64,000 nt of DNA from Candidatus Thiodiazotropha sp. CDECU1 (lineage in GTDB: Bacteria > Pseudomonadota > Gammaproteobacteria > Chromatiales > Chromatiaceae): positions 3,348,001-3,412,000 of the forward strand of contig NZ_OY734020.1 in assembly GCF_963455295.1 (NCBI RefSeq), read 5' to 3'. Position numbers and translations under genes: made by a program. Shown here one piece after another: positions 51,835 through 64,000 of the stretch; the stretch's first letter is position 1, and every line of letters begins with the position of its first letter. The notes under the pieces were generated by a model. The model saw nothing but the letters and a program-made list of their open reading frames with translations. It was not told the DNA's origin and did not search any database.

Positions 51835-52110
51835 AGAATCAGAAGTTAACTCTATAATCTGTTTACAGTTTTTTCTTGTCATACTAAACGGCTTGAGTTT
51901 AAGCAATAAGATATTAACATATTAAGTAGAGGGTCCTGATTAGATGCTTAGCTTATCGTTATATTCTTATTTTATGATAATGCTTCGCAGCTCTTTACTG
52001 TATATATTTTGTACAGTGTGGTGGTAATCTTTCACTAAACAGGATTTATTCACTAAACCTGGAACAACTTATGTGATATCAATGTCTCTATAGATTCATT
52101 GGAGAGTCTT
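51835..52110. other. AT-rich gap between glnD and the polysaccharide island
   Basis: These 276 bp hold no convincing gene. Composition drops sharply to AT-rich. The lipoprotein promoter should be here, but no hexamer pair stands out. No tRNA, integrase or obvious attachment repeat marks the boundary. Confidence 0.6.
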
Positions 52111-52503
52111 ATGTATCACAAACATACTTTATCAATCATCATTTTTATTGTTTTTTTTGCACTTCAGGGATGCGGTGGAGGTGGTGGTGGTAGCAATGTT
52201 AGCAGTGATACTCAGACTCCTGGTACGTATACCGCATACACGGACCTGATCTGGATTCCTCCCAAGACCAGGGAAGATGGTAGCTATCTGATCTCATCCA
52301 ATATTGCCGGTTATAAGGTTTACTACGGTACTGATAGTGACAATTTAAAAATGTTAGTTGATTTACAGGAAGCCGGTATTGATGAGTATCGGATTGGAGT
52401 TCCCTCTTCCGGAAGCTATTTTTTTGCTATCTCTGTTTACGATACAGAAGGGGTTGAAGGAGAGTTATCCAATATTGTACTTAAAGATGCTATCCCTTTT
52501 TGA
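52111..52503 (+). CDS. Putative lipoprotein with fibronectin type III-like domain
   Basis: The ATG at 52111 has GGAGAG 4 nt upstream and gives 130 aa; an in-frame TTG at 52099 is less likely. The signal sequence (about residues 5-20) ends in the lipobox LQGC, followed by a run of glycines typical of lipoprotein linkers. The rest (about 35-130) has an immunoglobulin/FnIII-like pattern: YTDLIWIPP, IAGYKVYYGTDSDNL and YFFAISVYDTEGVEGELSN. Proteins of this kind are common near polysaccharide or cell-surface loci. It converges on the ATP-grasp gene. Confidence 0.7.
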   Translation: MYHKHTLSIIIFIVFFALQGCGGGGGGSNVSSDTQTPGTYTAYTDLIWIPPKTREDGSYLISSNIAGYKVYYGTDSDNLKMLVDLQEAGIDEYRIGVPSSGSYFFAISVYDTEGVEGELSNIVLKDAIPF

Positions 52504-52524: not shown

Positions 52525-52544
52525 AAGTTTATTTTTTTAAACTT
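52525..52544. terminator. Weak bidirectional terminator-like hairpin
   Basis: AAGTTTA-TTTTTT-TAAACTT is a 7-bp A/T-rich stem, followed by TTTAT on the plus strand and A-rich on the other. It lies between the convergent lipoprotein and ATP-grasp genes and includes the ATP-grasp stop codon. The lack of G/C pairs makes it weak. Confidence 0.35.
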
Positions 52545-53731
52545 TTTATCCATTGTTTACTTTCAAATAGCCAGGGTTTTATATCGCTCAATCTTAGAAC
52601 CTCATAAAACATATTTTTTCCAAATGGATTTAGTATATTTATTATCACCTTCCATTTAGGACCATAGTCCTTTGGAAGGTTGAGTTGATTACCGCTCTTG
52701 AAGAGCAGCATTAACATTAGGTCTATATCGCCCCACAGCCAGCGTGTTTTTATGCCAACTTTATACGTTTGAGCATTTGATATTTCTATATTCTTCGCAA
52801 TACTGACTAGATGATCAGGAAAATCAACACCTGCATCTATAGCAAGTTGTAAAGAACCCCAGAATCTTCCATTGATTTCCATGAAGTATGGTATACCCCT
52901 ATTCTCATCATTTTTATATTCTACCATTGCCACACCATGCCAATTTAAATGACTTAACAGTAATTGGCTGTGCTTGTCTATCAGTGGGTCAATTTCTACA
53001 CTCTCTCTTAGTACACTCACACCGCCAGATGGTGGTTTTTCTCGAATTCTCTTATGTGCAAATTTAGCAATGCACTTACCGTGTTTGTAACAATAAAATG
53101 CACCAACACCATTGCCAAGCACTCTCTCTTGTAAAATTATTGGATAAATTTCTTGATGCGTGTTTTTTAGAATTGTAGATAATTCTTCTCCTGTCTTTGC
53201 ATAAGTAACACTGGTGAAATGCCATTTACCATCAATCATAACTCTTGATCGGGAGGGTTTAATAACAATTGGATAAGTAATATCAGCGTAGTCAATTGAG
53301 ATATCATTTTTTGATTCAATTATTTGAGAATTAGGTACATTTACACCTAATTCTTCAGCCACTTTTATAAGTTTACTTTTATTAGCGGCCAGACTGACAG
53401 TCTCATCACTTGCTATAGGTGTGATGCAGTTTAACTCATTGTCCTTAAATAATTTTGAAATTGGAAAAACACAAACATCAGTTACTGGAATGATAAGATC
53501 TATTTTGAACTCATTGACAATTTTTTTTATTGATGAGCAAAATTCATTGAAATTGTTTACAGGGTCTGGATAAACAATAGATTGCGAACAATATTTTGAA
53601 TTGGATGCCAGTGATGTCTCCGCACTATCAGCTACAAAAACCTTGTACCCTTTAGAACCTAATGACCTTGTAACTGCAAGCGCCGCTCTGCTATTTCCAT
53701 CTGTAACTAAAATATTTTTAATTATATTCAT
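52529..53731 (-). CDS. ATP-grasp domain protein (carboxylate-amine ligase-like)
   Basis: A 400-aa ATP-grasp enzyme. ILVTDGNSRAALAVTRSLG is the N-terminal Rossmann-like pre-ATP-grasp motif. YPIVIKPSRSRVM contains the ATP-binding lysine, and YFMEINGRFWGSLQLAIDAG is the C-terminal metal/ATP-binding segment (E-I-N-G-R). ATP-grasp enzymes join a carboxylate to an amine through an acyl phosphate, so it may form an amide linkage on the polysaccharide or a precursor. It is the last gene of the minus-strand locus. Substrate unknown. Confidence 0.85.
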   Translation of the reverse strand: MNIIKNILVTDGNSRAALAVTRSLGSKGYKVFVADSAETSLASNSKYCSQSIVYPDPVNNFNEFCSSIKKIVNEFKIDLIIPVTDVCVFPISKLFKDNELNCITPIASDETVSLAANKSKLIKVAEELGVNVPNSQIIESKNDISIDYADITYPIVIKPSRSRVMIDGKWHFTSVTYAKTGEELSTILKNTHQEIYPIILQERVLGNGVGAFYCYKHGKCIAKFAHKRIREKPPSGGVSVLRESVEIDPLIDKHSQLLLSHLNWHGVAMVEYKNDENRGIPYFMEINGRFWGSLQLAIDAGVDFPDHLVSIAKNIEISNAQTYKVGIKTRWLWGDIDLMLMLLFKSGNQLNLPKDYGPKWKVIINILNPFGKNMFYEVLRLSDIKPWLFESKQWIKSLKK

Positions 53732-53799
53732 TGATCTTTATTTTAAATTTAATTATTTTAGTCACGAATATTTATCTAGCTATGTAATTATATATTATT

Positions 53800-55005
53800 T
53801 TATGAATGCTGAGAATTATATATGAGATTATTTATACTTTTTCTATCCTCATTTTTTATATACATTTGAGTTGGCAAAGTAATAATTTGTTGTGATATCT
53901 GTTCTGCACCTGCAAATGTATTATTGTTAACGATATACTCTTGTATTTCTTTGAGCATATTTAATGACTTCGGATATGATACGGTCAATCCATATCTCTT
54001 ACCGTTCACTATTAGCGTATTTCTTGTAATTGGATCTGAAATCATTAAGGGATATCGTAAATAAGCAGGTTTAGTTGTATTAAATTCATTAATCTTCGTT
54101 ACTATCTTGTTTTCTTGTATATTTAATTTATACCATAAGCCATTATTTACTCTTATATCCATAATATCTTTCGACCTCTTTATCTGCTTCAATGCAAGAG
54201 GAGCTAATTTTGCAGGATATTTTTGAATTTCAATCTTCTCCTCATATCTGGTCTTTCCTAGGTTTAAAAAAGGAAGAGAGGCCGGCAACCAATAAAGAAA
54301 GGGGTTTAAAAAAGTATAATATATAAATACTTTTAGTGCAGTAATCAGACTATGTTTTGCAGATACATTAGTTAATAATTTGTATCTATTCTCAAGAATA
54401 TCCGCCAGCTGACTGTTATTTGTGACAAGTACGCCACCATCAATTGAAGTAATGTTTTTTCCTTTATCGAAACTATATAGACCAGCTATACCAAAGGTTC
54501 CAACCTGCCTTCCAGCATAGCTGGCATCAAATGATTGCGCTGCGTCATCAACCAAATATATGTCGTTTGCATTTGCGATTTCTTCTAATTCATTCAGTTG
54601 ATTGGGAATACCATATAAATTTGCTGTTATCATACATAACACATTGTCAAAAGGTAAATCATTCAACTGTTCTATGTTGTATGACAAAGTCTTTGGATCT
54701 ACGTCACATAATCTGATTTTTAAACCCGCATTAATCACAGCGCTTGCTACTGAATAACATGTGTATGCAGGTATAACTACTTCGTATTTTGAATTATCTT
54801 GCTTGAGCTGTTTTAGAGAACTTAACAAAGTTGTCATTGCTCCCCTGCCGGTAGAGAACAGAAAACAATTATCAACTTTGTACTTACTTTTAATTTCTTT
54901 TTTTATCTCCTGACGTTTATCGATAGATAGTAAGTAACATACTAACCAGTATAATAATTCAGACGTATTGATGGGTGAACCACTTGGAGCAATATACTTG
55001 AACAC
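53800..55005 (-). CDS. DegT/DnrJ/EryC1/StrS-family aminotransferase-like protein
   Basis: A 401-aa fold-type I PLP enzyme. The PLP-contacting aspartate is in YLVDDAAQSFDASYAG, and the Schiff-base lysine is most likely in YSFDKGKNITSIDGG, matching the SFDKGK pattern of the family. FSTGRGAMTTLL forms the N-terminal phosphate-binding segment. Members usually aminate keto-sugar nucleotides. The unusually hydrophobic N-terminus and lack of a sugar-dehydratase partner in the window leave the substrate open. It lies between the FemAB-like and ATP-grasp genes. Confidence 0.85.
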   Translation of the reverse strand: MFKYIAPSGSPINTSELLYWLVCYLLSIDKRQEIKKEIKSKYKVDNCFLFSTGRGAMTTLLSSLKQLKQDNSKYEVVIPAYTCYSVASAVINAGLKIRLCDVDPKTLSYNIEQLNDLPFDNVLCMITANLYGIPNQLNELEEIANANDIYLVDDAAQSFDASYAGRQVGTFGIAGLYSFDKGKNITSIDGGVLVTNNSQLADILENRYKLLTNVSAKHSLITALKVFIYYTFLNPFLYWLPASLPFLNLGKTRYEEKIEIQKYPAKLAPLALKQIKRSKDIMDIRVNNGLWYKLNIQENKIVTKINEFNTTKPAYLRYPLMISDPITRNTLIVNGKRYGLTVSYPKSLNMLKEIQEYIVNNNTFAGAEQISQQIITLPTQMYIKNEDRKSINNLIYNSQHS

Positions 55006-55017
55006 AGTAAAGTCGCC

Positions 55018-56082
55018 TTATGGGATGTACTTAGATATTAGTGGCCCGATCAATTGAGTGATTTTTAACGGCAGTTTTCTCCATACCCTGATCGCCAGTT
55101 TGTATTTAGGATTTGAAGGGTTGAGATTTGGTAATTCGTCTGTTGTGTTGAGATAGAATTGCCAGTAAAGCTGTCGAACATCGGCATTCCATTTTTTCTT
55201 GAATGATTCACCCCCGGAATCAACGCTTGATCGTCCTAGATGATATTGTTTATAACCGCTGTCACAAGCATCTTTAATCATTTCCCAATATAGAACATAA
55301 CTAGGTTGGTATTTTCTGAATTCATTGTTTATACCCAACCACATACCTTCTACCGTTCCCTTATAGTAGCCATTCAAAGCAGCCGCCACAGGGATTTCAT
55401 CCTTATACGCAACAAATATTTTAATATCATTTTTGAAGTATTTAAATATTTGTTTAAAATATTCGATGGAATATATAGGAGTGCCCAAGTCTCTCCATGA
55501 CATTGAAATGACCTTGTAGAATGCCGCTAAGAGCTCCTCACCCCCTTTCTTTACAGTTATCCCGTTTTTATATACCCTTCTTATGTTTGTTCTGTGTTTT
55601 GATTTGTAATTGTTCCATATATTTTCGCTTTCACTATCTAGATTTATTGTTAGAGATATTTTATTTGTTGATTCCTTTAAACTGTTTTCAGAAGGTTTCT
55701 GGCTCCTTATCTCAAGATATCTAGCATCTCTGTCATTTACCATTTGACAGGCAAATTGTATTAATTCTTTTTCAATTTCAATCGTATCTGTACAGCTTGA
55801 TCCATAATTCACGAATGGCATTGAGCAAATTACATGACCGAATATCAGACTTTTTAACGATACAAACGGAAAAACACCTACTATTTCGTTATTTTTTTCC
55901 GCAACCAGATTAGAGACATCATGTTTAAAATACCTAGAATTTATTAATTGCCACTCAAATAATTGATAAAAATTCGCATGATTGTTCTCTTTTAAGTACG
56001 AATTCCATTTTTCTCGATTCGATTCATCTGCATTATATAATTTTATGGAGATGTTACTTTGGTTCATATAGCTGCCATTCAT
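55018..56082 (-). CDS. FemAB/GNAT-like transferase of the PEP-CTERM/exosortase-associated type
   Basis: 354 aa with a GNAT-type acetyltransferase (BioF2-like) fold. The parts I recognise from the exosortase-associated FemAB subfamily (TIGR03019-type) are MSWRDLGTPIYSIEYF, YHLGRSSVDSGGESFKKKW and the C-terminal NLNPSNPKYKLAIRVWRKLP followed by LIGPLISKYIP. FemAB proteins transfer amino acids from aminoacyl-tRNA to peptidoglycan; these relatives probably modify exopolysaccharide or precursors (inference). There is no membrane anchor. A 136-bp gap separates it from the deacetylase gene. Confidence 0.82.
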   Translation of the reverse strand: MNGSYMNQSNISIKLYNADESNREKWNSYLKENNHANFYQLFEWQLINSRYFKHDVSNLVAEKNNEIVGVFPFVSLKSLIFGHVICSMPFVNYGSSCTDTIEIEKELIQFACQMVNDRDARYLEIRSQKPSENSLKESTNKISLTINLDSESENIWNNYKSKHRTNIRRVYKNGITVKKGGEELLAAFYKVISMSWRDLGTPIYSIEYFKQIFKYFKNDIKIFVAYKDEIPVAAALNGYYKGTVEGMWLGINNEFRKYQPSYVLYWEMIKDACDSGYKQYHLGRSSVDSGGESFKKKWNADVRQLYWQFYLNTTDELPNLNPSNPKYKLAIRVWRKLPLKITQLIGPLISKYIP

Positions 56083-56218
56083 ATGGATTTCTATTGATAA
56101 TGAAATGATATCGATTCACATAATATATTTGGATATAATATACCTTATAAACATGTATTGATCCGATCTCACACAAAGACATGTGATATTTAAATCGATC
56201 GAAAACATTAAAATATAT

Positions 56219-57244
56219 CTAAAATATTCCTAATATTGTTGCAAGAAACATAGGTTTACTATCTGCAATATCGTCATTAATATTGATTCTTTTAAGATTG
56301 TATTTATCTACACTGCTATCAACATGACCAAAGGTGGTACCAAAACCCAACTCATACCCAGTTTTTTTTGCGATTTCTCCAATCTCTTTATTATAATTTC
56401 CGTTCGGATAGGCTATATCTTTTACCTTAATTCTTAATTTATCTTCGATGATTGTCTTTGATTGCTTCAACTCTTCATATATCTCTTTACTGTCAAGTTG
56501 GGTCAATATTTTGTGGCTGCATGCATGCGATCCTATCTGAATGTTGTTTGAATTCAGTTCAACTAATTCTTCCCATGACATATGCTTATCAACTGATGAA
56601 ACCTCATCTAAGCTGATCATTTGAGAGAAATCACTCATAATAGTGTCGATTTCCCTATACGATAGTGATTTAAGCGACCTGACATAATTCATGATGCTTG
56701 ATTGCTTGTTTTTTTCATCTAATTTATCCATTCCGTATTTTTTCAGAGTTATTCGTGAGTCAACGGTATTGATTTCAGTTGATTTCCATATCAAGAACCC
56801 AAGCCTTTCCTGCCAAAATGTTGACGTTGATGAGATGTAATTTACGGGAACAAATATTAATGCAGGACAGTGATATTTTTGAAGTAATGGAAATGCATAC
56901 TCATAGTTATCAGACCATCCATCATCAAAGGTAATTATGCATTTAGGTTCAGATATCTTAGCGTTATTATTTAAAATATCTGCAATCCCTTTAGTATCTT
57001 CTATTGTAAATAATTTTGTTACGATACTAAGGTGCATATCAAAATTGGCAGGATCTACCATAATAGCCTGGTGTGAAAAACTAAGATTTCTTTTTTTATA
57101 GGGTAGTACCCTGTGATACGTAATAATGACTATTTTATTTGATAATTTTGTTTTTATTAAATATTCAGTTATACCGGTATAGTATAAGATATAAGCAATA
57201 ATCCTTTTAATAATACGAAACAGTTTTGAGACTATGTTTCTCAT
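56219..57244 (-). CDS. Polysaccharide deacetylase (NodB-like, CE4)
   Basis: 341 aa. VIITYHRVLP is the entry strand of the NodB fold. TFDDGWSDNYEYAFPLL has the two aspartates of motif 1, IGSHACSHKILTQL the H-x3-x-H metal motif 2, and IAYPNGNYNKEIGEIAKKTG motif 3. The hydrophobic N-terminal ~25 residues could tether it to the membrane. It probably removes N- or O-acetyl groups from the polysaccharide or its lipid-linked precursor. Confidence 0.87.
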   Translation of the reverse strand: MRNIVSKLFRIIKRIIAYILYYTGITEYLIKTKLSNKIVIITYHRVLPYKKRNLSFSHQAIMVDPANFDMHLSIVTKLFTIEDTKGIADILNNNAKISEPKCIITFDDGWSDNYEYAFPLLQKYHCPALIFVPVNYISSTSTFWQERLGFLIWKSTEINTVDSRITLKKYGMDKLDEKNKQSSIMNYVRSLKSLSYREIDTIMSDFSQMISLDEVSSVDKHMSWEELVELNSNNIQIGSHACSHKILTQLDSKEIYEELKQSKTIIEDKLRIKVKDIAYPNGNYNKEIGEIAKKTGYELGFGTTFGHVDSSVDKYNLKRININDDIADSKPMFLATILGIF

Positions 57245-57257
57245 ATGAAAGTATTTT

Positions 57258-58067
57258 TTATTTTTTCCTCAAAATCAATATATTTCCGAATGCTGGGCCC
57301 GGTATTTTTATATATTTAAACCAAATCTTGTTAAAGTAATGGATTACTTTTTTTAATACGCTTGATGATACCACCCAATACAATTCAGTGAATTGACCTG
57401 CTCTCCTTGATACCAGCTCAAGACCATGTTTTTCAAACTCTTTGACGTACCAATCTATATTTGCCTGTCTTGTCATTAAGCGACCATCACCTGTTTCTTC
57501 CCAGTTTTCTATACCTGCATCGACAATATTGACTACCGCTTTTTCGCGTCCTAGGATTTTTTTCAATAACCTGATTGCGATTGTCTGCAATGAATGCATA
57601 TTACCTTCGCTTATCGCAAGTATGCCTCCTCTTTTAACAATTCTCGACAGTTCAGATATCGCTTTATCAACATCAGGAATGTGCATTAATACTCCCCAAC
57701 ATAAAACCTTGCTAAACGATTCGTCTTCTATTGTTAATTTGGTTAAATTTTCACACCTGAGTTCTATCTTGTCGTCATAGTCAGATCCAGCTAATCCCTT
57801 TCTAGCTAAATCAAGTGCGGACTCAGAAAGATCTGTTCCTACGACCTGATAGCCCCGGTCTACTAAATTTTTAGACTTTGCGCAGCTGCCACATCCAGCG
57901 TCCAATACTTGGTCACCGTCTATTTGCTCAAAAGAATCGCGTATGAAGTCAAAAGCCATGTTGTAAAATAACTCATTATCTGGCGTTCTGTAATTATCCA
58001 CCCACTCGTCATGAATCGAATTTTGTTGTAATGTCTTTTCTGCATCATTTGAGTTTTGTGTAGTCAC
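57258..58067 (-). CDS. Class I SAM-dependent methyltransferase
   Basis: A 269-aa methyltransferase (type 11 pattern). VLDAGCGSCAKSKNLVDRG is motif I and VVGTDLSESALDLARKG motif II; SKVLCWGVLMHIPDVDKAI and IVKRGGILAISEGN follow. The C-terminal 90 residues contain an extra helical, basic segment. It is 14 bp upstream of the deacetylase gene within the locus, so sugar O-methylation is the likely role. The substrate cannot be read from sequence. Confidence 0.85.
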   Translation of the reverse strand: MTTQNSNDAEKTLQQNSIHDEWVDNYRTPDNELFYNMAFDFIRDSFEQIDGDQVLDAGCGSCAKSKNLVDRGYQVVGTDLSESALDLARKGLAGSDYDDKIELRCENLTKLTIEDESFSKVLCWGVLMHIPDVDKAISELSRIVKRGGILAISEGNMHSLQTIAIRLLKKILGREKAVVNIVDAGIENWEETGDGRLMTRQANIDWYVKEFEKHGLELVSRRAGQFTELYWVVSSSVLKKVIHYFNKIWFKYIKIPGPAFGNILILRKK

Positions 58068-58112
58068 TGTTGTAGTCTCATCACTAAAGTTTTACAGAGT
58101 AATTTGAGGAAA

Positions 58113-59957
58113 TCATATACTGTAAATATTTCTCCACAGTAAATAATTTACAGTCGTCCAGATTATTTCTGACATATCTGACTTTCCAGACATGTGATCT
58201 TTGTACCGATTTCGAACGTATGCCAGGTCTATATTTTCATCATTTTTTGTATCATATAAAACCTCTTTTACCATTTTACCAAATCCGCTACCATCTCTTA
58301 TCCAGTCAGACAATGGCACACCAAAACCAGATTTTCTACGATAAATCAGTTCTTTTGGTAAATACTTCTCTGCAATGTTTTTTATGAGCATTTTTGTATT
58401 TGTCTTTTCTATTTTTACAGATGAGGGTATCGAGTTTGCAAACTCCACTAATCTGTAATCAATAAATGGTACCCTGGCTTCAACACTAGCACCCATGCTC
58501 ATTTTATCCTGCCTGTTTAGAATTGATACTAGATATGTTAACTGGTCTTGTATCGAAACCATATCCATGGTCTTCTCATAGTTCATCATTGAAGAAGAAA
58601 CATGTTTTCTATAATCAAGATTAATACTTTGATCATTCAACGCAATTTTTTCTACCGAGTCATATTTATTAACAGCAGAATTAAGCATTAATAATAACTC
58701 TTTATCAAAACTTGAATAGTCACTTAATTTTGTAAAGCGATGATCAGATATTACTTTTGATAATAATCTCAATATTGGTGACATCACCCATGATAACCTT
58801 CTGAACTTATTTATTAATTCAGGAATAAAATATCTTGGATAACCCAAAAAGAGTTCGTCTGCCCCCTCTCCAGTTAACACTACTGTCACGTGCTCCTTTG
58901 CCAATTCGCTCAGTGCTAATATGTGTACAGAATTTGAGAAATGAAGCGGTTCATCATTTAACGTTATGGATCTATTGAGTAAACCAGCAAAATCATCACT
59001 ATTCAGTACAAGCTCATGGTGTTTTGTGCCATATTTGTCCGAAACTATCTTTGCGTATCTTGACTCATCATAGTTCTCTTCGTTAAAGCCAACAGAGAAT
59101 GTATTCATATTGTTGCCGGCAATACCAGCAGCTATTGCAGTTACAAGACTGGAATCTATTCCACCACTGCAAAATGTACCAAGCGGTACTTCACTCATTA
59201 ATCGAATGTTTATAGCATCCTTGAGCAAGGATTCAATGCCTTCCATAGCTGAGACTTTATCTAGAGATTTATCCTGCTTTATGGCCTGCAAATTCCAGTA
59301 TTTTACAATATTAACTTGATTGTTTTTCACGACCATATAGTGGCCAGGAAGAAGCGAATGAATCTGGCTGAACATTGTATTTGGACCAGCAACACCTCTA
59401 AACATGAAATATTCATATATAGATTGAGTATTCAATTCACCTCTGATATCACCGTACTCCAGAATTGCCTTAATCTCTGAAGCAAAGTAAAAACCACTTT
59501 CTATATGGCTGTAATAGATAGGCTTGATACCCATCCTATCTCTTGCCAGGAACAATGATTTATCAATTTCATTATAAATAGCAAAAGCAAACATACCATT
59601 TAAATACTTCAAACAGTCAAATCCATACTCAATGTAAAGGTATATAATTACCTCAGTATCTGATTCGGTATTGAACGAATATCCTTTTTTTACCAAATCT
59701 TTTTTTAGCTCTAAGTAATTGTAGATTTCTCCGTTGAATACTATCCAATATTTATTACTACTATCCGTCATTGGTTGGTGGCCAGTGGAAAGTCCTATAA
59801 TACTTAGCCTTCTATGAGCAATGCCAAGTGATCCTGAGACATATTGACCACTGTCATCCGGCCCTCTATAAGAAAATATATCTGTCATTGCTTGCAGCTT
59901 TGACTTGTCGACACTCTTAGATGAGTCTGCATATAGTACACCGGCTATTCCACACAT
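58113..59957 (-). CDS. asnB: Asparagine synthase (glutamine-hydrolysing) family amidotransferase
   Basis: 614 aa. The N-terminal class-II glutaminase has Cys2 exposed after Met removal (MCGIAGVLY), with RGPDDSGQY and FNGEIYNYLEL. The C-terminal synthetase domain has the PPi loop FCSGGIDSSLVTAIA and LTGEGADELFLGYPRY. Copies inside polysaccharide loci, including exosortase-type ones, generally amidate a sugar acid or adjoining amino acid rather than make free asparagine. It follows the CapK-like gene by 15 bp. Confidence 0.9.
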   Translation of the reverse strand: MCGIAGVLYADSSKSVDKSKLQAMTDIFSYRGPDDSGQYVSGSLGIAHRRLSIIGLSTGHQPMTDSSNKYWIVFNGEIYNYLELKKDLVKKGYSFNTESDTEVIIYLYIEYGFDCLKYLNGMFAFAIYNEIDKSLFLARDRMGIKPIYYSHIESGFYFASEIKAILEYGDIRGELNTQSIYEYFMFRGVAGPNTMFSQIHSLLPGHYMVVKNNQVNIVKYWNLQAIKQDKSLDKVSAMEGIESLLKDAINIRLMSEVPLGTFCSGGIDSSLVTAIAAGIAGNNMNTFSVGFNEENYDESRYAKIVSDKYGTKHHELVLNSDDFAGLLNRSITLNDEPLHFSNSVHILALSELAKEHVTVVLTGEGADELFLGYPRYFIPELINKFRRLSWVMSPILRLLSKVISDHRFTKLSDYSSFDKELLLMLNSAVNKYDSVEKIALNDQSINLDYRKHVSSSMMNYEKTMDMVSIQDQLTYLVSILNRQDKMSMGASVEARVPFIDYRLVEFANSIPSSVKIEKTNTKMLIKNIAEKYLPKELIYRRKSGFGVPLSDWIRDGSGFGKMVKEVLYDTKNDENIDLAYVRNRYKDHMSGKSDMSEIIWTTVNYLLWRNIYSI

Positions 59958-59972
59958 CTTTTATTATTCCTG

Positions 59973-61376
59973 TTAAATATTCATGTCTACATTGGAAATA
60001 ACCCACTTAAACTTACCTGTTGCTGTGCGTTCAAGTTCTTGTACCATCTCTATAGAGACTTTGGTATCTTTTCCCAACCTTTCTGATAGGCTGTGTAACA
60101 ATTCATTTTTATCGTGTTCAGTAAAATTGTCATCTGTTCTAAGTTTGACAGTTATATTGTCAATATCATTTTGGATTATCTGAGACTCCAATATGGAAGT
60201 CAGCGGCTTAAAAGGGTGGGTAAGTACTGATGGCGATATCAGCCTTCCATCCTTAAGCACTATTGTATCTTCTGCCTTTGTGGTCACCTCATTAAGTAAA
60301 TAATGAGCTCTACCGCATGCACACTTCTCTTGCTTAATAGCTGACATATCATTCGTTTTATAACGTATTAAAGGCATTGCAAGATTGTGTAATGAAGTTG
60401 CTACTACAGTACCTGTTTTTCCACGCTCTAATGAATTACCATCGCTATCGCATATTTCAGTAATGCCATACTCCATCCCAATGTGACCACCAGAGTGAGA
60501 GCATTCTGTTGTAAATAGTACTCTTTCAGCTGAACCGTAGTAATCATAAACCTTACAATCAAAACTTTGTTCGATTGTTTCTCTTTGAAAATCATACAAA
60601 GTTTCTGATGATGTCAGTACAGATTCCAGCTTCAGTTGTTCACCGATACTTTTCAAGTATTTTGCTAAAATGTAAACAGTTGATGGGTAACCATCCAGGG
60701 TCTTTGGTGAGAATCTTCTAAGCTCATCCAGGTAGTAATTTATATATTCAGGTTTTAAATGAAAGGATGATAGTAACAATTGATTATGAAAATAGTTGTA
60801 TCTCCAAAATGGCGGGGTTTGATTGCTCAACGGTACTATGATGTTACCTCTGATCACGGCAACTTTATCGCCGAATTTACCAAGATTTACCCCAGCCCAA
60901 TTATATTGCCTGTCTAACATGGCATAGTTAAAGTTAATAAGATTTTTACTATAACAAATTTCAAGTGGAGAGCCTGTTGTTCCACTTGTATGACCTCTAT
61001 CAACAGTATTCATATTATATTCGTCAGACAGCAGAGCATTGAAATTATTTTTAATATTTTCCTTTGTCAAGATAGGCAGTTTTTGCAGATCATCGATAGT
61101 AGTAATATCTGATGGTTTTAATTTAAGTTTTTTCATCAATAAAGAATAATATTCTACATGCTCATAACTATACTTTATGAGGTCTCTAAGCATTGTTTCC
61201 TGATAATCTATAATTTCATTTTCATCGTACCACTGGCTCTTATCCAAGAAACTTTTTACTTTTTTGAATTCCCCACCGTACCTTTTTTTATCCAAAATAA
61301 TACTATAAGTTGTTACAGCTAAATTTTGAATTGGAGCTGGTAATAAATCATATATATTCTTAAATGGGGTATCCAT
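59973..61376 (-). CDS. CapK/PaaK-like adenylate-forming enzyme
   Basis: 467 aa related to phenylacetate-CoA ligases and the capsule protein CapK. GHTSGTTGSPLEICYS is the AMP-binding P-loop. YDYYGSAERVLFTTECSHSG is the A5-like region and IRYKTNDMSAIKQEKCACGR the A7-like region with the CapK cysteine pattern. A C-terminal lid domain ends with RTATGKFKWVIS. Enzymes of this group activate an acyl group as an adenylate; in polysaccharide loci the acceptor is usually unknown. Confidence 0.87.
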   Translation of the reverse strand: MDTPFKNIYDLLPAPIQNLAVTTYSIILDKKRYGGEFKKVKSFLDKSQWYDENEIIDYQETMLRDLIKYSYEHVEYYSLLMKKLKLKPSDITTIDDLQKLPILTKENIKNNFNALLSDEYNMNTVDRGHTSGTTGSPLEICYSKNLINFNYAMLDRQYNWAGVNLGKFGDKVAVIRGNIIVPLSNQTPPFWRYNYFHNQLLLSSFHLKPEYINYYLDELRRFSPKTLDGYPSTVYILAKYLKSIGEQLKLESVLTSSETLYDFQRETIEQSFDCKVYDYYGSAERVLFTTECSHSGGHIGMEYGITEICDSDGNSLERGKTGTVVATSLHNLAMPLIRYKTNDMSAIKQEKCACGRAHYLLNEVTTKAEDTIVLKDGRLISPSVLTHPFKPLTSILESQIIQNDIDNITVKLRTDDNFTEHDKNELLHSLSERLGKDTKVSIEMVQELERTATGKFKWVISNVDMNI

Positions 61377-61397
61377 GGTCTATCTTAATTATTCAAA

Positions 61398-62612
61398 CTA
61401 GTGTATTACACTTTTATACGCTGCTATTAAACCTTCAGCTATAGAAGGCCATGCATACTTCTGTTCCGCAAGAAGTCTTGCTTGTTTACCCAATTCATCT
61501 CTTCTTTCTTCATCGTTTATTAATTCGATAATACTGTTAGCGAAACCTTCATCAGTATCTTCTAAATAAACATTCAATCGATCAGTCACTTCAATTCCTT
61601 CACTACCTATTGAAGTCGACACAATTGCCTTTCCTTGTGCAAGTGCATCCAATACCTTCAGCCTTGTTCCACCGCCAACCCTTAATGGCACAACATATAT
61701 GGCTGATTTAGCAACGTATGGCCTGATGTCATCAACGAATCCCAAGACTTTTATACCACTATCTTGAGATGCAATAGATAACAATTCTTTTGGCGGATCC
61801 TGACCTATTATATAAAAGTTAATTGCTGGTATTTTCTTCTTTACCATCGGCCAAATATCATTAATCAAATGCATGACTGCATCCTTATTAGCAAACATAT
61901 TCATACCACCGGTATAAATAATCGCTTGCTCTTCCTTATCACCAAGCTTGGTAAAATAGTTTACATCAACACCATTTGGTACAATTGCAGTATTAACGCC
62001 TGGTGACATTTGGTTCAACTCTTCTGCATCTGTTTTTGACATCATCACATTGACGGGGTATTTTTCGCTTTCTGTTGCCTCATATTCTCTTAATCTTTTT
62101 GACTGTTTTGCAACGTAATATCTTGCAAACCAATTAGATTCAACCTTTGATCTCCTGGCCATCAAAGATGATTCTATATTGTGATGAGTAACAATACATG
62201 GAATATCACCTATACATTCTCTGTACTGAGATAAACCCACGGTATCAATATGGACAATATCGATTTTATTTTTTTCTAGAATTTCTCTAATCGTTTTTTT
62301 ATATGCCGAGCTTTTATGAGCAAGCACACTAAATGGTAATGGATAGAAGAAGCCCAACAAAAACGCCAGGAATTTGTGAATCTTTGATTGCTTTGGCCAC
62401 AGCTTGAAATAGTGCACCTGAGAACATATTTTCTCTAACTCCTGTTTGCTCTCTTCCAACAGCGATTCTGTGGCTATTGTATCGGGATGATGAAATGCGA
62501 GTAGGTAGACTTCATTCTCTTTTCCGATCTCTCGAATGATATTGTAGCCTCTTTGTAAAACTCCACCATGCGGAGGGTAAGGTATGATTTGTGATAAAAA
62601 TAAAACTTTCAT
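61398..62612 (-). CDS. Glycosyltransferase, GT4-type (exosortase-locus-like)
   Basis: A 404-aa GT-B glycosyltransferase. The N-terminal LFLSQIIPYPPHGGVLQRGY resembles the donor/acceptor loop of the PEP-CTERM/EpsH1-associated sugar transferases (TIGR03087-like; from memory). VPNGVDVNYF and VPLRVGGGTRLKVLDALAQGKAIVSTS (given by its key segments) match the GT4 retaining signature, with Glu in SEGIEV. It probably adds one residue to a lipid-linked repeat unit on the cytoplasmic face. Confidence 0.88.
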   Translation of the reverse strand: MKVLFLSQIIPYPPHGGVLQRGYNIIREIGKENEVYLLAFHHPDTIATESLLEESKQELEKICSQVHYFKLWPKQSKIHKFLAFLLGFFYPLPFSVLAHKSSAYKKTIREILEKNKIDIVHIDTVGLSQYRECIGDIPCIVTHHNIESSLMARRSKVESNWFARYYVAKQSKRLREYEATESEKYPVNVMMSKTDAEELNQMSPGVNTAIVPNGVDVNYFTKLGDKEEQAIIYTGGMNMFANKDAVMHLINDIWPMVKKKIPAINFYIIGQDPPKELLSIASQDSGIKVLGFVDDIRPYVAKSAIYVVPLRVGGGTRLKVLDALAQGKAIVSTSIGSEGIEVTDRLNVYLEDTDEGFANSIIELINDEERRDELGKQARLLAEQKYAWPSIAEGLIAAYKSVIH

Positions 62613-62623
62613 TTATTGGCTAC

Positions 62624-63751
62624 CTAAACATTTATTAATTTTTGATACAGATCTGCATATCTAGAAGACATCTTAGCTGCCGTGAAATGCTCTTCATATC
62701 TTAACCTTGCATTTTTTCCAAGCTGTTCTCTCAACTGCTTTTTTTCTATCATTTCTGTCAAAGATGAAATCATTGCTTGGATGTTACCCGGCTCAACCAC
62801 TACTCCATATTCCGGACTGTTGATGATTTTTGGCGTCTCTCCTACACTCGTTGTGACTATTGCCTTACTTGATGCCATGGCTTCAAGTAAAACCATTGAC
62901 ATTGCTTCCCATAGCGATGGCTGAAAGAATATATCTATTTTCGGTAGAATAACTGACGATGCTGAGTCTACCCAGCCCAAAAGATGGACATAATCCTCTA
63001 GATTGTATTTGGCTATCTCTGCTTCCAATTTAGATCTGAGAGGTCCATCTCCTGCAACAACAAAGACAAACTTGTCAGGTAGATTGTCTTTTAAAACCTT
63101 GGATACCTCAATCAAATCAAACATGCCCTTCTGTTCTATAAGTGTATTGACTGAACCAATAATCACCTTGCCTTGTTGCCTGTATCCTTCTATAGCATCA
63201 AGTTTTTTATTCTCTGTTAAAATATCCACCCCATTCCAAACAGTTGTTACTCTATTCTCCGGGATTTTATAAAATTTACATAAATCACTCTTTTGTTTCT
63301 CTGATACGGAGACTAGCTTATCAGGTACTCTCCAAAATAATTTCTCAAGTTTTGCCCTTTTCGGTTCTCTGTGTGGATAATTCCCAAAGTGAAATGTATG
63401 TACCAATTTTAGTGATGGCATCGTTAGCCTACATATTGATGCATCAATTAGAGAGTGAATGTCATGTGTATGTACAATACTGAATTGCTCTTTCTTTATA
63501 AGGTTTCTAAGGCGTAGTGATGTTAAATAGTCTGTTTTATTTATAGATTTTTTTGCAACCCCAATTACATCTGTACCTTGTTTTGCAATTCTTTCTCCTA
63601 CCAAACCCATCTCTTTAAGATAACAGACCGTAATATCAAATAAATCTTTGTCGATTGTTTTGCATATATTTGCTGTAACCTCTTCGGCACCACCTATATG
63701 TAAAGTTGAATGCAATATGCATATTTTGATTTTGCTGTTATTCATGGCCAC
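62624..63751 (-). CDS. Glycosyltransferase, GT4 family
   Basis: A 375-aa GT-B glycosyltransferase. LHIGGAEEVTANICKTI is the GT4 N-terminal glycine loop. VWNGVDILTENKK, VVAGDGPLRSKLEAEI and FFQPSLWEAMSMVLLEAMAS follow, the latter with the E-x7-E retaining motif. It begins 10 bp after the upstream partial gene and ends 11 bp before the next GT gene, so all three are likely one transcript. Confidence 0.9.
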   Translation of the reverse strand: MAMNNSKIKICILHSTLHIGGAEEVTANICKTIDKDLFDITVCYLKEMGLVGERIAKQGTDVIGVAKKSINKTDYLTSLRLRNLIKKEQFSIVHTHDIHSLIDASICRLTMPSLKLVHTFHFGNYPHREPKRAKLEKLFWRVPDKLVSVSEKQKSDLCKFYKIPENRVTTVWNGVDILTENKKLDAIEGYRQQGKVIIGSVNTLIEQKGMFDLIEVSKVLKDNLPDKFVFVVAGDGPLRSKLEAEIAKYNLEDYVHLLGWVDSASSVILPKIDIFFQPSLWEAMSMVLLEAMASSKAIVTTSVGETPKIINSPEYGVVVEPGNIQAMISSLTEMIEKKQLREQLGKNARLRYEEHFTAAKMSSRYADLYQKLINV

Positions 63752-63761
63752 TGTTTTTAAC

Positions 63762-64000
63762 TTATTTATCGGTTGCTAAACTTTTATTAATATTCTTTTC
63801 TTCCAGATCCAATTTATACATAAATTCAGCTGCCACAAATAACCCCACTAGCACAAATATATGAGGATAATATGTAACAGATAGGAATGCACCACCGACG
63901 GAGAATGCTACAAGGCTGGCATTCAACATTAGAAATAACTTTCTGTACTCAGACTCCACTCCAGAATCTCCTCCAGAGTCTGCATACTCCCTCATTGTTT
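63762..64000 (-). CDS. Partial C-terminal end of a membrane protein, likely O-antigen ligase/polymerase-like
   Basis: The frame is open to the window edge; the 77 residues from the last Met are MREYADSGGD through a hydrophobic stretch to a charged tail. Two membrane segments are visible around ASLVAFSVGGAFLSVTYY and IFVLVGLFVAAEFMYKLD. FSVGGAFLS followed by an aromatic pair resembles the C-terminus of exosortase A-associated O-glycosylation ligases (Wzy/WaaL-like, TIGR03097-type). This is recalled from memory and only a fragment is visible. A short complete protein starting at 63995 is less likely. Confidence 0.55.
   Translation of the reverse strand, partial: TMREYADSGGDSGVESEYRKLFLMLNASLVAFSVGGAFLSVTYYPHIFVLVGLFVAAEFMYKLDLEEKNINKSLATDK

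Follow-up and report, generated by a model that had tools for sequence, protein, structure and literature searches.

An AT-rich exopolysaccharide island of Candidatus Thiodiazotropha sp. CDECU1 with a divergent XrtA-like exosortase

Introduction

To what do exosortases attach their substrate proteins? The question has stood since 2006, when the legend of Figure 4 in Haft 2006 (PMC1569441) named the target 'an unknown periplasmic nucleophile'. The question is raised again by a stretch of 64,000 nucleotides of Candidatus Thiodiazotropha sp. CDECU1 (bases 3348001-3412000 of the complete 4.46 Mb chromosome; hereafter the window), which ends in a run of AT-rich genes that an earlier reading of the DNA, here called the original prediction, had taken as the probable edge of an exosortase A-type polysaccharide locus. 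This region is the glnD-side part of an AT-rich exopolysaccharide island of about 30 kb that holds a divergent XrtA-like exosortase. Here the exosortase shares one syntenic block with an amidotransferase, a deacetylase and a FemX-like aminoacyl transferase. In oral Bacteroidota the same kinds of enzymes make an amino-acid-bearing sugar that is joined to sortase-released proteins. The island offers a testable route to the acceptor question, although the core idea was published in 2020 and the gene combination is partly ordinary. Members of Candidatus Thiodiazotropha live as symbionts in the gills of lucinid clams, and their surface glycan may thus bear on host association.

An exosortase within the AT-rich island

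Window positions 52529-64000 hold nine complete minus-strand open reading frames (ORFs), and a tenth is represented by its 3′ part (63762-64000), in agreement with the ten consecutive genes originally counted. They are separated by 68, 12, 136, 13, 45, 15, 21, 11 and 10 bp, so that the spacing of 10-70 bp described for most of them holds apart from one gap of 136 bp. The GC content of the run is 34.5%, as against 54.3% in positions 1-50000, which bears out the marked AT-richness noted before. In the order of transcription, from position 64000 downward, the genes encode the tail of an O-glycosylation ligase, two GT4 glycosyltransferases, a CapK/PaaK-like enzyme, AsnB, a methyltransferase, a CE4 deacetylase, a FemAB-type transferase, a DegT aminotransferase and an ATP-grasp protein. 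Each of these identities, all named in the original prediction, is backed by Pfam, NCBIfam or Protein Data Bank (PDB) matches.

An exosortase, expected by the original prediction within about 20 kb, is located 4.3 kb past the window end (genome 3416314-3417843, plus strand; L004:6314-7843). The protein of 509 residues carries a fused EpsI domain and passes both the exosortase model TIGR02602 (133.5 bits, cut-off 105.55) and the EpsI model TIGR02914 (83 bits, cut-off 42.8). The catalytic Cys, Arg and His of exosortases are present as Cys185, Arg230 and His251, which do not vary among twelve homologues. A second deacetylase of the island, encoded past the window end, passes TIGR03006 (397 bits, cut-off 276), and the FemAB protein passes TIGR03019 (293 bits, cut-off 260).

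The original prediction is supported, with a qualification as to type A: the exosortase, TIGR03019 and TIGR03006 stand, whereas the exosortase fails the XrtA model TIGR03109 (173 bits, cut-off 208) and the other parts stay below their XrtA-specific cut-offs. The latter applies to the two glycosyltransferases (TIGR03087, 220.6 of 316.65 bits; TIGR03088, 153.9 of 409), the ligase (TIGR03097, 180.6 of 188.1), AsnB (TIGR03108, 497 of 817) and hydrolases 1 and 2 (TIGR03100, 92 of 168, and TIGR03101, 143 of 203). The exosortase does not pass the XrtD model TIGR04152 (95.6 bits, cut-off 400) or the XrtW model either. In a phylogenetic tree the Thiodiazotropha exosortases of the island type form one supported clade, separate from same-family XrtA and from XrtD; the deeper branching order is unsure because of long branches. 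The island thus carries a divergent XrtA-like system, for which the label 'exosortase A' is too specific.

The island is bounded by glnD and by thrC-hom-alaC, and about 19 kb of it lie past the window end, where the GC content is mostly 32-42%. The genes between genome position 3412001 and about 3430785 encode GT4, GT2 and VOC proteins, the exosortase with its EpsI domain, hydrolases 1 and 2, a low-molecular-weight phosphatase, the XrtA-type deacetylase, a further GT4, an AsnB-like protein, a beta-helix protein, Wzx and another AsnB-like protein. The closest named relatives are found in Candidatus Thiodiazotropha and other metagenome-assembled genomes (MAGs) of lucinid symbionts, the ATP-grasp protein being 96% identical to that of a Ctena orbiculata MAG. 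Because the same gene order is kept in four other Thiodiazotropha genomes (G010, G004, G020 and G003), the run is not a chance arrangement. The island proteins share about 47-84% identity with their counterparts there, compared with 82-97% for the flanking housekeeping genes. Different glycan genes occupy the glnD-thrC site in other sister genomes, which marks it as a variable polysaccharide locus.

Such variation is also known from O-antigen loci, and Wzx, glycosyltransferases and a WaaL/Wzy-like ligase would suit an ordinary O-antigen or capsule cluster functionally unconnected to the neighbouring exosortase. We consider this very improbable and reject it, since the exosortase and XrtA-type genes lie inside the syntenic block: besides the four proteins over the cut-offs of TIGR03019, TIGR03006, TIGR02602 and TIGR02914, the same island holds the ligase close to the TIGR03097 cut-off and the homologues of hydrolases 1 and 2. 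The assignment to an exosortase-associated exopolysaccharide island is made with high confidence.

The FemAB-type transferase and its donor

The gene at 55018-56082 (minus strand) encodes the FemAB-family protein, whose pass of TIGR03019 is narrow; usual-type relatives reach about 500 bits. Its structural model has a mean confidence (pLDDT) of 92.5 and shows a FemX-like double GNAT fold. The closest structural matches are FemX (1ne9 and 4ii9, Z 28.2), FemA (Z 25.8), Sbb17/Sba18 (Z 25.6) and MprF/A-PGS (Z about 20). Sbb17/Sba18, which were solved with the antibiotic intermediate streptothrisamine, are aminoacyl-tRNA-dependent peptide synthases. Lys295, within the motif FKKKW, is invariant among 19 sequences, and a profile alignment places F294-K295 on the FK of FemX 6snr; the catalytic lysine of FemXWv is Lys305 (PMC12945691). 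With the peptidoglycan transferases FemX and FemA the island protein therefore has the fold and the FK motif in common. It differs in sequence (about 17-18% identity) and presumably in substrate, which would be a glycan precursor rather than a muropeptide.

Does the enzyme transfer an amino acid or another acyl group? The gene run also codes for a PaaK-like adenylating enzyme, and the superfamily of FemAB includes acetyl-CoA GNATs, so that FemAB could be an acyl-CoA N-acyltransferase that uses the acid activated by the CapK/PaaK-like enzyme and yields an N-acyl sugar. The structural ranking speaks against such a donor: the best 22 matches are all users of aminoacyl-tRNA, while acetyl-CoA GNATs follow below Z 19, that is 9-10 Z units below FemX. 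The invariant Lys295, aligned with the FemX motif, and the lack of CapK in most loci with related gene sets point in the same direction. An N-acyltransferase of this kind is therefore unlikely, and FemAB rather likely attaches an amino acid to a sugar. The decoration with amino-acid-like groups remains a prediction, which is supported by the modelled FemX-like fold and by a published precedent in Porphyromonas discussed below. A second, distant FemAB-like protein is encoded in the genome at G000:C1:451583-452173 (55 bits to TIGR03019).

A cassette that recurs across phyla

The genes for FemAB, DegT, the CE4 deacetylase and the ATP-grasp protein are close same-strand neighbours well beyond the genus and across phyla. 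All four occur together in Steroidobacter, Zixibacteria and one Chloroflexi MAG, and a partial or more scattered set was found in Deltaproteobacteria, Acidobacteria and Desulfobacterales; CapK is absent from most of these loci. FemAB proximity falls with the distance of the ATP-grasp relatives (6/6 of the closest set, 7/13 of the middle and 1/43 of the distant set, where enough flank was available), and the pairing thus marks a clade. A CE4 deacetylase lies at most 3 kb from FemAB in 32 of 36 rows, some loci being counted twice. Pairwise distances of the four cassette proteins correlate at 0.91-0.97 (13 loci together with the proteins of the window), which is also expected from shared species history. 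One Acidobacteria genome (L081) encodes a fusion of the ATP-grasp protein with an Acetyltransf_6 domain, the type of GNAT domain that FemAB has. Many distant ATP-grasp relatives have about 580 residues (L097, L103, L105, L106, L111, L135, L144 and others), and both of those checked (L135 and L144) carry a fused low-molecular-weight phosphatase domain. A limited literature search yielded nothing relevant on FemAB together with ATP-grasp and deacetylase, on a role of FemAB in the spore coat of Myxococcus or on Thiodiazotropha exopolysaccharide.

The original prediction named no described pathway with its combination of enzymes. That AsnB, CapK and FemAB form a new combination was considered and rejected, since all three occur in XrtA-type loci of this bacterial family (L064, L067 and L068) and a CapK protein is among the profile partners in Haft 2006, Table 2 (PMC1569441). 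In these loci CapK and AsnB are no more than about 10 kb away from FemAB, and the exosortase of L064 passes the XrtA model with 354 bits. The less usual feature is the FemAB-DegT-CE4-ATP-grasp cassette, which recurs across phyla and sometimes without an exosortase.

A possible acceptor for the exosortase

A published precedent is the Wbp/Vim pathway of Porphyromonas and Tannerella, the product of which is an amino-acid-bearing uronic acid (Veith 2020, PMC7468200). In this pathway deacetylation is the step proposed for the CE4 protein VimE, VimA, which matches TIGR03019, determines the addition of serine or glycine, WbpS (AsnB, TIGR03108 family) makes a uronamide, and the C-terminus of the released cargo is joined to the sugar-borne amino acid. 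That exosortase systems may use a similar sugar was already suggested in the same paper (PMC7468200), and the island is in line with that suggestion. Prevotella intermedia, which has neither VimA nor VimE, was later shown to carry an N-alanyl deoxyhexose (PMC11969387). With this type IX secretion system the island has in common a TIGR03019 FemAB (VimA), a CE4 protein (VimE), AsnB (WbpS), a DegT-family aminotransferase and a sortase-type enzyme. It differs by an exosortase in place of PorU and by the additional ATP-grasp, CapK and methyltransferase genes. The VimA-like FemAB (55018-56082) adjoins the VimE-like CE4 deacetylase (56219-57244). By analogy with VimE and VimA we propose, with moderate confidence, that deacetylase and FemAB make an aminoacyl 'linking sugar'.

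The substrate would be a cytoplasmic nucleotide- or lipid-linked sugar, with a free amine supplied by DegT, exposed by the CE4 deacetylase, or both. FemAB would transfer an amino acid from aminoacyl-tRNA onto that amine, and AsnB would amidate a uronic acid. Additional acyl, amide or methyl groups could come from the methyltransferase, the ATP-grasp protein and the CapK-like enzyme. By hydropathy the deacetylase of the window has no membrane segment and is thus probably cytoplasmic; together with the one borderline segment of FemAB this suits an action on a cytoplasmic precursor. The repeat would then be assembled by the GT4 and GT2 enzymes and flipped by Wzx. In the least certain step the exosortase would cleave the PEP-CTERM tails and link the C-terminus thus freed with the amino group on the aminoacylated sugar, which would bind the proteins covalently into the polysaccharide. 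That the aminoacylated sugar is the exosortase acceptor we propose only tentatively. The scheme as a whole, comprising exopolysaccharide island, linking sugar and acceptor, is the best explanation at hand and falls just short of probable.

Several observations weigh against this scheme. To our knowledge the chemistry of no exosortase product has been determined so far. ATP-grasp and DegT, like CapK and the methyltransferase, have no assigned step, and no WbpA/WbpB/WbpD-type genes were found among the island ORFs scanned, the rest of the genome not having been searched for them. The cassette is separate from the exosortase in four Thiodiazotropha genomes (G002, G008, G011 and G013) and is present in two Zixibacteria chromosomes without an exosortase match; it is thus a portable module that is not strictly tied to exosortases. 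In one of these chromosomes (L083) the FemAB passes TIGR03019, and this model was therefore discarded as proof of an exosortase. The genus itself allows a natural comparison: the FemAB cassette is present in some genomes and absent from others, PEP-CTERM proteins occur in all of them and exosortases in nearly all. In eight of its genomes no FemAB exceeds the TIGR03019 cut-off (seven have no match, G014 one of 55 bits), although each has an exosortase and 3-8 PEP-CTERM proteins. FemAB is therefore not obligatory: either the acceptor is made by another enzyme there, or FemAB merely decorates the polysaccharide. The absence of an exosortase in G056, of the same species, was not used, as the contig of this broken assembly ends within the island DegT gene.

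The distribution just described speaks for decoration alone, in which aminoacyl and amide groups adjust how charged or cohesive the slime is or how the host recognises it, and the exosortase attaches PEP-CTERM proteins to some other target or merely shares the island. Caulobacter HfsK, a FemX-like GNAT that affects holdfast cohesion, is a further point in its favour (PMC5362036); it acts on an adhesive polysaccharide, as the island enzyme may do, but has no exosortase link. The C-terminus of HfsK binds c-di-GMP. On the other side, TIGR03019 was named for its co-distribution with exosortases, same-family XrtA loci have FemAB a few kb from the exosortase, and the VimA/VimE precedent yields a sugar for protein attachment (PMC7468200). 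We regard decoration alone as a serious possibility, if somewhat short of probable. A wider version of the linking-sugar scheme is doubtful, namely that the cassette is a hitherto undescribed, mobile, phylum-crossing pathway for aminoacyl/amide sugars that uses aminoacyl-tRNA and whose product is the PEP-CTERM acceptor in exosortase bacteria.

Exosortase-system parts elsewhere on the chromosome

Proteins with PEP-CTERM tails, implied by the original assignment, were found outside the island: six pass the Pfam cut-off genome-wide, and they have VPEP tails with basic ends and N-termini that, judged by eye, resemble signal peptides. PrsK (TIGR02916, 774 bits), PrsR (TIGR02915, 722 bits) and PrsT (TIGR02917, 479 bits), all over the cut-offs, are encoded at 3.11 Mb together with a tyrosine kinase. 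A near-consensus sigma-54-like site lies 76-118 bp upstream of the start codon in two of the six PEP-CTERM genes; equally good sites arose in 1/500 and 3/500 shuffles, respectively. Sigma-54 sites before all PEP-CTERM genes were considered and rejected, as they are clear in only these two. The two sites agree with the PrsR/RpoN model (Haft 2006, PMC1569441), and the RpoN-dependent pepA of Aquincola points in the same direction (PMC9850573). Among cultivable floc-formers, Aquincola tertiaricarbonis RN12 and Zoogloea resiniphila MMB are reported to possess the PEP-CTERM/exosortase system.

A second exosortase locus at 2.975-3.015 Mb (L006/L007) encodes an XrtD that passes TIGR04152 (570 bits, cut-off 400), along with PrsT, chain-length, kinase, rhamnose and WcaJ genes. 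This XrtD/VPLPA-CTERM system shares with the island an EpsI-domain exosortase and exopolysaccharide genes, and it differs in its clear XrtD score, compared with 96 bits for the island exosortase. A small protein with an IPLPA-type tail is encoded nearby (L014). At L007:15627-18299 (minus strand) lies a gene for a protein of 890 residues with an XrtA-associated ATPase-like domain (TIGR03015, below cut-off) and a C-terminal OmpA-like domain. Because the Prs genes, the XrtD/chain-length locus and the PEP-CTERM genes lie outside the island, the system is spread over at least three loci.

Compared with the XrtA (EpsH1)/PEP-CTERM system (Haft 2006, PMC1569441), the common parts are an EpsI-domain exosortase, a TIGR03019 FemAB, a TIGR03006 deacetylase, a TIGR03097-like ligase, AsnB, CapK, hydrolases 1 and 2, PrsK/PrsR/PrsT and PEP-CTERM proteins. 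The differences are an exosortase that scores below the XrtA cut-off and belongs to a separate Thiodiazotropha clade, the distribution over three chromosomal loci, the extra DegT-CE4-ATP-grasp cassette and the AT-rich, variable island. In the sister species G017 and G007 (L038 and L040) an unfused exosortase of 290 residues was found, which in G017 scores 208.1 bits to the XrtA model and so lies at the cut-off; a more usual FemAB adjoins a TIGR03006-like deacetylase in these loci.

Further genes of the island

All genes of the window run lie on the minus strand. The ligase part at 63762-64000 is the C-terminal end of a TIGR03097-like protein, the whole gene of which spans L004:1762-3015. The GT4 at 62624-63751 is nearest to stp2 (TIGR03088) and the GT4 at 61398-62612 to stp1 (TIGR03087). 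The adenylate-forming enzyme at 59973-61376 had no Pfam match and is of the PaaK type by NCBIfam and PDB. AsnB (58113-59957) has the Cys2 glutaminase nucleophile and passes TIGR01536. The gene at 57258-58067 encodes an S-adenosylmethionine-dependent methyltransferase (Methyltransf_11), and the CE4 deacetylase (PF01522) shows TFDD at residue 105 and HxxxH at 240. The DegT/DnrJ/EryC1 aminotransferase (53800-55005) contains the pyridoxal phosphate lysine motif, SFDKGK at residues 178-183.

The ATP-grasp ligase of the cassette (52529-53731) belongs to PF15632 and resembles PRK06849/PRK12767. A PDB sequence search with this protein gave no match. Its AlphaFold2 model (pLDDT 92.7) has the ATP-grasp fold, with 2pn1, PurK and the L-amino acid ligase 3vot all at about Z 26-28. 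The structure did not decide on a product, as 2pn1, PurK, biotin carboxylase, L-amino acid ligase and PylC fall within about 2 Z units.

The two further AsnB-like proteins of the island (L004:12903-14618, plus strand, and L004:18875 to L151:785, minus strand; within genome 3422903-3430785) apparently have no Cys2 glutaminase nucleophile (MFLISITGS... and ...VGFAGV...), and no counterparts of them were seen at the syntenic loci in G010, G004 and G003. By analogy with asparagine-synthetase-like cyclases they may form amides with other amines. A NosD-like (beta-helix type) protein of 465 residues is encoded at L004:14711-16108 (minus strand), where the GC content of about 42% is above that of the surrounding island; it was found in G003 and G004 too. 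At window position 52099-52503 (plus strand) lies a small lipoprotein-like ORF (LQGC followed by poly-Gly), which most genomes of the genus keep next to glnD and which matches the lipo-invert anchoring domain weakly (20 bits, cut-off 37).

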